From Pelagibius marinus (GTDB lineage: Bacteria; Pseudomonadota; Alphaproteobacteria; Kiloniellales; Kiloniellaceae): a DNA stretch of 64,000 nt. Both the position numbers and the translations under genes were made by a program. Shown here piece after piece: positions 51,539-55,037 of the stretch. The notes under the pieces were generated by a model. It did no database searches and was not told the DNA's origin. It worked only from the letters and a program-made list of their open reading frames with translations. Positions within the stretch are counted from its first letter, which is position 1. Every line of letters starts with the position of its first letter. The stretch spans positions 124,001-188,000 of the forward strand of contig NZ_JACSDK010000016.1 in the NCBI RefSeq assembly GCF_014925385.1. Direction: 5' to 3'.

Positions 51539-53704
51539 ATGCGGGCGCTGCCTGACGGCAGGGAAAGCGGGCAGGACAAGGGCGGGCCGTCGGACCTTGT
51601 TCGACTGGCCGGGCGGGCCCGCGACGACCTGCTGGCCGAGCGCGGGCGCTGGCCGCTGTGGGTGCCGGCGCTGCTGGGGTTGGGCGTCTGCTTCTATTTT
51701 TGGGGCAAGGCGGAGCCGCCGGTCTGGCTGGGGCCTGCCGCCGCTGCGGTGCCGGGCATCGGTGCCTGGGGCCTGCGCCGCGCACCGGGCCTGAGCCTGG
51801 TTCTCCTCGCGCTGTTCACCGTAGCCGCCGGCTTCGCCCTGGCGCAGCTGCGCACCCAGCTCGTGGCCGCGCCGGTGCTGGAGCGGAACTGGGGACCGGC
51901 CGCGCTGACGGCGGAACTTCTGGACAGCGAGCCGCGGACGCTGGGCCGGCGGCTCTACCTGCGCCCGCTGGAGATGCCGGGGCTCGCGCAGGAGGATCTG
52001 CCGGCACGACTGCGGGTCACCGTGACCGCCCTGGAGACCGCGCCGGCGCCCGGCAGCCTCCTGCGCCTGCGCGCCGCCCTCCGGCCACCGAGCCCGCCCG
52101 TGCTGCCCGGTGCCTTCGATTTCGCCCGCCAGGCCTATTTCCAGCGTCTCGGCGGGATCGGTTTTGCCTACGGCACCGCCGAGGTGCTGGCGCCGCCGCA
52201 GGATGGCGGCGGGGCTACCGCCGCCTGGCAGCGCTGGTGGGCAGGGCTGCGCCAGACCATCGCCGGACGCGTCGCGGCGCAGCTCGAGGGACAGGCGGGA
52301 GCCGTCGCGGTGGCGCTCATCACCGGCCAGCGCGGCGCCATCAGCGAGGCGACCCGCGCCGACATGCGCGTCGCGGGCCTGGCCCACCTGCTGGCGATCT
52401 CGGGCCTTCACATGGGCCTGGTCGCGGGCTGCCTGTTCTTCTTCCTGCGCGCCGGCCTGGCCCTGATCCCCGGCCTGGCGCTCTATCACCCGATCAAGAA
52501 GTGGGCGGCGGTGGCCGCCGCCGCCGGCGCCTTCGTCTACCTGAACCTGGTGGGCGCCAGCATTCCGGCGCAACGCGCTTTCCTCATGATCGCCGTGGTG
52601 CTGCTGGCGGTGCTGCTGGAACGCCGCGCGCTCTCTCTGCGCCTGGTCGCCTGGGCCGCCGTGGTGATCCTCATCGCCGCGCCGGAAAGCCTCATGTCGG
52701 CCAGCTTCCAGATGTCCTTTGCCGCCGTCACAGCGCTGATCGCCGCCTACGAGGCCTGGGACGGCCGCCGCCCGCAGTACCGCGAGGCGAGGGGTATGGC
52801 AGAGCGGTTGCTGACATACTTCGCCGGCGTTGCGGCGACCTCGGTGATCGCCATTCTCGCCACCGGGCCCTTTGCTGCCTTCCACTTCCAACGCCTGGCC
52901 CTATACGGGCTCCTGGCCAATCTGGTGGCGGTGCCGCTGACCGCCTTCTGGATCATGCCCTGGGCCGTCCTGGCCCTGCTGCTCATGCCCTTCGGCGGCG
53001 AAGCCCTGGGGCTCGTGCCCATGGGTTGGGGCCTCGAGGTGCTGCTGGGGCTTGCCGGGACCGTGGCCGCCTGGCCGGCGGCCAGCCTGCAGGCGCCGCC
53101 CATGCCGGACTGGGGCCTGGGGCTGGTGGCGCTCGGCGGGCTCTGGCTCTGCCTCTGGCAGCGGCCCTGGCGCCGCCTCGGTCTCGCGCTGATCCTGGCC
53201 GGGGCGCTCTCCCCGCTGAGCTTCGAGCCGCCGAGTCTGCTGGTCAGCGGCGACGGCCGGCAGGCGGGCCTGCGTGACGTCGAAGGGCGGCTGTGGGTGG
53301 GCTGGCCGCGCGGCAGCAGCTTCGTGCTCGACAGCTGGGCGCGGCGGGCCTTCGCGTCGCAGACCTTGCCTTGGCCGGCCCTCGGAGAAGGGAGCGCTGC
53401 CGGTATGAGCTGCGATCCCCTCGGCTGCCTCTACCGGGAGAACGGCTGGACACTGGCGGTGCTGCGCGACCCGCGCGCCGCCGCCGACGACTGCCGCCTG
53501 GCCGAGGTCGTGGTCAGCTTGGAGCCGCTGCGCCGCCAACCCTGCCGTGGCCCGGCGGTGGTCATCGACCGTTTCGATCTCTGGCGCCAGGGCGCCCAGG
53601 CGGTGTGGCTGGGGCCGGAGGGGCCCGTCGTGCGCACCGTGGCCGGGCAGCAGGGCGCACGTCCCTGGTCGCCCTATCCGGCGCGGGCTTTCGGGAATGA
53701 CTAG
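51539..53704 (+). CDS. comEC: ComEC/Rec2 family competence protein
   Basis: 721 residues. An N-terminal membrane and OB-fold-like domain (DUF4131 type) is followed by the ComEC competence domain with about ten helices. Characteristic segments are ALITGQRGAISEATRADMRVAGLAHLLAISGLHMGLVAG, GASIPAQRAFLMIAVVLLAVLLERR and MSASFQMSFAAVTALI. The C-terminal metallo-beta-lactamase domain seen in Bacillus is reduced to a short strand-rich remnant without the HxHxDH motif, as usual in alphaproteobacteria. It forms the DNA-uptake channel of the inner membrane. ATG 51539 has GGGGGA about 8 bases upstream. Confidence 0.93.
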   Translation: MRALPDGRESGQDKGGPSDLVRLAGRARDDLLAERGRWPLWVPALLGLGVCFYFWGKAEPPVWLGPAAAAVPGIGAWGLRRAPGLSLVLLALFTVAAGFALAQLRTQLVAAPVLERNWGPAALTAELLDSEPRTLGRRLYLRPLEMPGLAQEDLPARLRVTVTALETAPAPGSLLRLRAALRPPSPPVLPGAFDFARQAYFQRLGGIGFAYGTAEVLAPPQDGGGATAAWQRWWAGLRQTIAGRVAAQLEGQAGAVAVALITGQRGAISEATRADMRVAGLAHLLAISGLHMGLVAGCLFFFLRAGLALIPGLALYHPIKKWAAVAAAAGAFVYLNLVGASIPAQRAFLMIAVVLLAVLLERRALSLRLVAWAAVVILIAAPESLMSASFQMSFAAVTALIAAYEAWDGRRPQYREARGMAERLLTYFAGVAATSVIAILATGPFAAFHFQRLALYGLLANLVAVPLTAFWIMPWAVLALLLMPFGGEALGLVPMGWGLEVLLGLAGTVAAWPAASLQAPPMPDWGLGLVALGGLWLCLWQRPWRRLGLALILAGALSPLSFEPPSLLVSGDGRQAGLRDVEGRLWVGWPRGSSFVLDSWARRAFASQTLPWPALGEGSAAGMSCDPLGCLYRENGWTLAVLRDPRAAADDCRLAEVVVSLEPLRRQPCRGPAVVIDRFDLWRQGAQAVWLGPEGPVVRTVAGQQGARPWSPYPARAFGND

Positions 53705-53854
53705 AGACGACCAAATGAGCAGCTTTGCTCACAGCGCGAGGCGCGTTGAGGCTGTCGCAATCTACGCGCCGGAGCGCTAAGATGATTGAATTTAATGCTC
53801 CCCGTTCCCGCTCTGCGGGAGGACAACGATGGACCAATAGATCTGGAGCACAGT

Positions 53855-54022
53855 ATGAGTGAATTCGCAGATCAGTTGATTGCTCTCAATGTCCCCAGGT
53901 CGAGTCTGGAATTTATGGGACTTGTCGCCTGGGTCATCGGCGCCGCCAGCTTTTGCGTATTGGCCGTACTTTGGGTGCTCCTGCCTTTCAACATGGCGCC
54001 TGAAGCAAAAAAAACAGGATGA
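53855..54022 (+). CDS. 55-residue single-helix membrane protein
   Basis: ATG 53855 with TGGAGC about 7 bases upstream opens a 55-residue frame. Residues 20-48 (EFMGLVAWVIGAASFCVLAVLWVLL) form one strong membrane helix, with a soluble N-terminus of about 18 residues and a short basic tail. I recognise no family. Its last codons contain a run of eight A's (54007-54014), read A-AAA-AAA-A, a classic slippery sequence. Its stop overlaps the start of a second tiny membrane ORF in the -1 frame. A longer in-frame start at 53786 would add a tail without a ribosome site. Confidence 0.55.
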   Translation: MSEFADQLIALNVPRSSLEFMGLVAWVIGAASFCVLAVLWVLLPFNMAPEAKKTG

Positions 54023-54183
54023 TGCTGCTCCCCCTGATCGTGTTTCTCCCGGGGTCTTTTTTCACGCCCAGGGGCACGACGATCCGGTCATGGCTTATAC
54101 CCGTTATTCTTTTGTTTCTCGGTGCGTGGATTGTGGGGTTCACATTGGCGATGACCCTGCAGCGAATGCCTGCTGCAAGCTAG
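54019..54183 (+). CDS. 54-residue two-helix membrane protein
   Basis: An ATGATG start at 54019/54022 overlaps the preceding stop (ATGA). The product is very hydrophobic: helix 1 LLPLIVFLPGSFF, a short polar loop TPRGTTIRS, then helix 2 WLIPVILLFLGAWIVGFTLAM. It ends QRMPAAS at TAG 54181. No homologue comes to mind. It could be translated by coupling to the upstream frame, or be the C-terminal half of one 3-helix protein reached by slippage on the A8 run. An indel error in the run is also possible. Confidence 0.5.
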   Translation: MMLLPLIVFLPGSFFTPRGTTIRSWLIPVILLFLGAWIVGFTLAMTLQRMPAAS

Positions 54184-54230
54184 CGGGCCCAAGTCTTGAG
54201 CAACGCCCCGCCGTCGTTTTGGCAGTGGGC

Positions 54231-54270
54231 CCCGGCCTCGGAGATCCGGATCGCAGCGAGGCCCGGGTTT
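54231..54270 (+). terminator. terminator after the two small membrane ORFs
   Basis: GGCCTCG (54234-54240) pairs with CGAGGCC (54257-54263) and extends outward to CCC/GGG with one mismatch. TTTAG follows. A second long-range pair, GGGCCCA (54185-54191) with TGGGCCC (54226-54232), precedes it. The T tract is short. Confidence 0.4.
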
Positions 54271-54279
54271 AGCTCCCGC

Positions 54280-54296
54280 CCAGGCTGTCCGCCTGG
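54280..54296 (-). terminator. hairpin downstream of lexA
   Basis: CCAGGC (54280-54285) / GCCTGG (54291-54296) forms a 6-bp stem with a 5-base loop, 7 bases past the lexA stop on the minus strand. No T tract follows in that direction. Confidence 0.3.
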
Positions 54297-54302
54297 TCCC
54301 GA

Positions 54303-55037
54303 CTAGTAGCGCCGCAGCAGACCCACCAGGCGGCCCTGGATGGCGACGCGCTCGGGCGGGAAGATCCGTGTCTCATAGGCCTGGTTGGCCGGCTCCAGGG
54401 CGATGGCGCCGCCCTTGCGGCGCAGACGCTTCAGGGTGGCCTCTTCGTTGTCGACCAGGGCGACCACGATGGTGCCGTTCTCGGCGCTCTCGCAGCGCTC
54501 GATGATCACCGTATCGCCGTCCAGGATGCCGGCGTCGACCATGGAGTCGCCGTCGACCTCCAGGGCGTAGTGCTCGCCGTTGCCCATGATGGAGGAGGGC
54601 ACGTCGACGTAGTTGGAATAGTCGCGCAGGGCCTCGATCGGCGTGCCGGCGGCGATCCGGCCATAGAGCGGCAGCTGCATCGCGTCGCTGTCGTTGGCGG
54701 CCTGGGCACCGGGGATCGACGAGGAGAACCCGCCCCGGATGACCTTGGGGGCGAAGCCGCCGCGGGCGTCGCCGCCCTGCGGCGGCGTTTCCGCGCCCGT
54801 GTCCTCGACCTCGCCGGCCATGTCATTGGGCAGGCGCAGCACCTCCACGGCCCTGGCCCGGTGCGGCAGGCGGCGGATGAAGCCGCGCTCCTCCAGGCCG
54901 GTGATCAGCCGGTGGATGCCCGACTTCGACTTCAGCGCCAGCGCATCCTTCATTTCGTCGAAGGACGGGGAGACCCCGTTCTTCTGCAGGTGGCGGTGGA
55001 TGAAGAGCAAAAGCTCGTGCTGCTTTTTGGTGAGCAT
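54303..55037 (-). CDS. lexA: SOS response repressor LexA
   Basis: 244 residues. An N-terminal winged helix ([17 protein letters not shown], with [25 protein letters not shown] as the recognition part) is followed by a ~50-residue linker. The S24 peptidase domain has the cleavage site Ala130-Gly131 (RIAAGTP) and the catalytic Ser165 (GDSMVDAG) and Lys203 (ATLKRL). RecA filaments trigger self-cleavage and derepress SOS genes. The ATG at 55037 gives the family start; upstream in-frame codons lie in the promoter. An SOS box overlaps its promoter, so it represses itself. Confidence 0.97.

Follow-up and report, generated by a model that had tools for sequence, protein, structure and literature searches.

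A small membrane protein gene probably gained between comEC and lexA of Pelagibius marinus and probably frame-broken near a run of eight A's

The 64,000-nucleotide stretch of DNA analyzed here (the window) carries, between two convergent genes that we take by recognition to be comEC and lexA, a pair of short open reading frames (ORFs) on the plus strand. With moderate confidence, we read them as a single gene of about 110 residues, encoding a membrane protein with probably two helices, that was gained at this site as a single-gene insert and was later broken in frame near a run of eight A's (A8). ORF1 runs from an ATG at 53855 to a TGA at 54020-54022 (55 residues) and ORF2 from an ATG at 54019 to a TAG at 54181-54183 (54 residues), which are the sizes given in the initial annotation; the A run also lies where it had been described, at 54007-54014. 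A Shine-Dalgarno-like GGAG (53845..53848, plus strand) is found 6 nt upstream of the ORF1 start.

A homologue search with both halves, which the initial annotation had called for, found each of them conserved as part of one continuous ORF. Each half was used separately as a query against 58 genomes, and adjoining matches of ORF1 and ORF2 were obtained in two genomes of the same genus, G006 and G003, with ORF2 alone matched in a third, G001 (G000 designates the window's own genome and G001 to G007 the other genomes of the genus). In all three, one uninterrupted ORF of 105-106 residues spans both halves. A profile of these three proteins retrieved further, more distant intact members in G000 (a paralogue at C3:37734) and G004, and an HMM was built from the five relatives. 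ORF1 (53855..54022), the N-terminal half with the first hydrophobic region and a PFN..P motif, scored 25.6 bits over model positions 2-51, and the highest value among 1996 scored shuffles was 12.6. The ORF2 frame read from 54004 (54004..54183, plus strand), the C-terminal half with a TP motif and the second hydrophobic region, scored 25.8 bits over positions 54-101, or 24.6 bits from its own ATG (best of 2000 shuffles, 11.8). The window copy is colinear with the family profile, its halves in consecutive register and one base short, and the genome search gave the same register. Because the same profile is matched in this way, we conclude from the alignments that ORF1 and ORF2 are halves of one gene and not two genes. 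The uninterrupted frame, kept by all five relatives and lost in the window copy, further shows that the fused register is ancestral.

These relatives make it highly improbable that the locus encodes two separate, translationally coupled mini-proteins, one of the options first put forward, since each of the five is a single ORF. The ATGA overlap at the junction and the one strong hydrophobic stretch in each half would suit such a pair; however, a one-base change near the TGA would readily produce such an overlap, and ORF2 lacks a well-placed ribosome site, having merely AGG directly against its ATG. ORF2 does lie in the -1 frame, as had been emphasized, but this carries no extra weight, because an ATGA overlap with the ORF1 stop always imposes -1. 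The three-helix fusion proposed at the same time fared less well. Only one hydrophobic stretch of ORF2 is strong; the first exceeds the threshold in just two windows of 17 residues. Hydropathy plots of two intact relatives (the G006 protein and the G000 paralogue) show two hydrophobic regions each. Given this marginal first stretch and these two plots, a full-length product with two helices appears likelier than one with three.

The last codons of ORF1 are GCA AAA AAA ACA GGA TGA, and the A8 run falls within the interval of the frame change, which alignment cannot fix to one base; this junction also contains the Trp that is invariant in the family. The 5.44-Mb genome contains 33 distinct A or T runs of at least 8, giving 1.8e-4 expected per 30-nt interval, which is not a clean probability because we chose the 30-nt width and the place had been picked for its run in the first instance. 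The coincidence of the run with the frame-change interval is probably more than chance. We propose that one copy of a small, genus-restricted membrane protein family was inserted between comEC and lexA as a single gene and that, after this gain, a one-base change of frame occurred near A8, for which replication slippage in the homopolymer is the likeliest cause. Most transcripts would now yield only an N-terminal half of 55 residues; translation may to some extent restart at ORF2, or slippage may occur. The frame change itself would be real and later than the gain.

The gene could instead still be in use, some full-length protein being made by slippage of RNA polymerase on A8 or by a -1 slip of ribosomes on A_AAA_AAA, a scenario that we consider unlikely though credible. 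The run sits in the junction, with the low, post hoc expectation given above, and the A_AAA_AAA within it is a slippery heptamer in the phase used by a -1 ribosomal slip. Furthermore, PMC1088944 describes disrupted genes as restorable by slippage and suggests that slippage on eight A's is productive in IS elements from two organisms, and PMC3017870 presents eight Blochmannia vafer genes whose homopolymer frameshifts may be corrected by slippage. Yet a homopolymer is also the likeliest place for a plain indel, and the coincidence is what a replication slip would leave. None of the five relatives has a frame change or an A run above 4 (longest, 2-4), so the slippery site is not conserved and a conserved programmed shift finds no support in these sequences. 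The predicted RNA fold of 54003-54100 is no better than that of shuffled sequences (z 0.14; 105 of 200 shuffles as good; pseudoknots lie outside this test), and no strong Shine-Dalgarno-like element is apparent by eye 5' of the run. Between the frameshift-made protein and the homopolymer-broken gene that had both been suggested, we therefore favor the broken gene, owing to the five relatives without an A run and to the absence of structure beyond chance; the position of the run keeps slippage open. In PMC3711429, a singleton split is treated as a likely indel or error, orphan genes being exempted from this rule, and orphan genes with programmed frameshifts appear among the unclustered cases. 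The window split is a singleton among the relatives found.

The conservation of the window copy bears on both readings. Its protein is 37% identical to that of G006, which equals the 37-38% of the distant intact members (the G000 paralogue and G004), and this similarity fits continued use. In contrast, its identity to these two members is just 18% and 21%, against the 31% that they share with each other, as relaxed constraint would give. The window copy keeps 9 of the 14 scorable residues that are invariant in the five relatives, the fifteenth being the Trp in the unscored junction. When the G000 paralogue or G004 was left out of the reference set, the window copy kept 12/24 and 11/23 of the residues invariant in the remaining four, while the omitted intact members themselves kept 15/25 and 15/26. 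Its retention therefore appears somewhat lower than that of intact distant members, not strikingly so. Moreover, no second lesion is present in either half, and with the identity to G006 and the 9 retained residues this means that decay is not plain. A six-member tree gave no supported fork, and nothing is drawn from it.

Homopolymers are typical sites of assembly and sequencing errors, and both halves are otherwise uninterrupted, so the gene might be intact in the cell. We judge this explanation quite unlikely. The window has five other homopolymers of 7-8, and no broken gene was recognized among the window genes aligned with G004. There, 51 G004 ORFs matched the window (longest-ORF picks that include shadow ORFs, so that the real genes compared were fewer), and the 5 with an apparent frame change were all shadow or intergenic ORFs by reading of the ORF lists.

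The gene occupies a lower-GC insert of 598 nt (53705..54302) that constitutes the whole gap between comEC and lexA. The corresponding gap measures -7 to 47 nt in all seven other genomes of the genus and 0 to 309 nt in 15 other family-rank genomes, these values being approximate in nine, where the lexA match stops before the stop codon. The GC content of the middle of the insert is 0.535-0.555, compared with about 0.7 around it. We infer that the insert was gained in the window genome and not lost elsewhere. No second copy of it was found in the eight genus genomes, where matches in the DNA search were at most 42 bases long with E values of 0.018 or worse. By eye, a 6-base direct repeat, GACTAG, is seen at the insert edges (53699-53704 and 54301-54306); it may be due to chance or to duplication of a target site, and we do not claim the latter. 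No terminal inverted repeat was seen at the insert, no promoter- or terminator-like sites were found in 53650-54330, and no Rfam family matched within 53600-54400 up to an E value of 1.

The initial annotation knew of no family for either ORF, and as far as our searches reached this holds. ORF1, ORF2, and the three closer relatives have no Pfam match at the curated cut-off and no NCBIfam match, and the two distant relatives, searched against Pfam, have no match there either. Five proteins gave no PADLOC match at an E value of 0.1, and no PDB chain was matched up to an E value of 1. Matches to PHROG were weak, the best at 0.016 (the paralogue). A PHROG holin family was matched at 0.08 (ORF2) and a Pfam holin at 0.15; we regard the holin resemblance as chance hydrophobicity. 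A pattern scan of genome contigs gave 50 matches, of which 3 encode relatives, namely, those of G006, G001, and G003, while in viral contigs none of 32 pattern matches was confirmed as a relative. With the G006 protein as sole query, no relative was found on plasmids and phages at an E value of 0.01. Outside the genus, a search of 61 genomes from the order found no family member at an E value of 0.001, and among 385 sampled genomes of the class and 398 of the phylum (up to 12 candidates scored per genome) no match at this value fell beyond the window's own genome. At a loose E value of 3, 16 of 23 family-rank genomes gave matches, and those beyond the members named here were read as chance. 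In G000, a short hydrophobic peptide at C1:1013779-1013886 weakly matches the second half of the profile (E value, 0.009); it was not counted as a member. NCBI taxonomy places Pelagibius under Rhodovibrionaceae. Our best reading is a membrane protein family that is limited, as found here, to one Pelagibius-like genus and that appears patchy and fast-evolving. Between G006 and G001, the dN/dS of the family gene is 0.51 (dS, 0.26) and that of a neighbour 0.07, a comparison of short sequences from one pair.

The family occupies three different genomic sites, of which the other two behave like that between comEC and lexA. At the second, between a metallo-beta-lactamase-fold gene (Pfam Lactamase_B_2) and what is presumably a substrate-binding protein gene, the family gene is present in G001, G003, and G006. 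The aligned end of the neighbour lies at a distance of 25 nt in G002 and 3 nt in G007; G000 and G004 have other ORFs and no family member, and G005 gave no neighbour match. The G000 gap between the metallo-hydrolase and substrate-binding genes (C16, near 267 kb) holds a minus-strand ORF of about 145 residues with a start that looks signal-peptide-like by eye; this ORF was not seen in the shorter gap of G004. At the third site, flanked by genes that we take to be EamA-like and aldehyde-dehydrogenase-like, G000 and G004 carry the family gene, the gap in G002 and G007 is merely about 60 nt, and the EamA match is absent in G001, G003, and G006 at an E value of 1e-70; G005, whose locus was truncated, is left out of this gap comparison. 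Between G000 (C3:37.7 kb) and G004 (C1:1475 kb), the flanks of this third site are 87.5% and 94.5% identical at the DNA level. Across the gene, identity in 60-nt steps falls to about 0.3-0.6, a single stretch of 81 nt reaching 72%, and protein identity is 31%. It is as if the gene had been swapped, or were diverging very quickly, between the two genomes. The G004 copy also has a 15-residue loop insertion.

The contrast at this site between proteins that are 31% identical and flanks that are 87.5-94.5% identical suggests that something may drive rapid turnover of the family. One could go further and picture a hypervariable, site-hopping family of two-helix proteins, exchanged at fixed sites in the manner of variable immunity or exclusion genes, with A8 acting as an on/off or low-dose switch through replication or transcription slippage. 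We offer this as speculation, improbable as a whole; if true, the A run would be an unusual case of a switch in a GC-rich genome. For the broken gene that we favor, the locus is a further example of a gene split in frame at a homopolymer and serves mainly as a warning that mini-ORFs overlapping by ATGA need not be two genes. The family is more notable than the frameshift, with no Pfam or NCBIfam match where these were searched, three sites, and rapid divergence.

Programmed -1 frameshifting at A_AAA_AAG/A operates in dnaX and in IS transposases, and the window shares with these systems an in-phase, A-rich slippery sequence. Unlike them, however, the window site is not conserved in relatives and has no stimulatory structure that we could find, and the ancestral gene needs no shift. 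IS elements with slippery A runs are also treated in PMC1088944, together with the "pseudo pseudogenes"; these, like the Blochmannia genes of PMC3017870, are genes split at a poly(A) run that have intact relatives, which is the arrangement seen in the window. The search reported in PMC1088944 addressed runs of nine, whereas the window run is A8, and the Blochmannia vafer genome is given in PMC3017870 as extremely AT-biased, whereas the DNA around the window copy is about 70% GC. Finally, while the members of the genus family at the other two sites (G001, G003, and G006 at one, G000 and G004 at the other) are, unlike the window copy, single uninterrupted ORFs without an A run, both halves of the window copy align colinearly with them.
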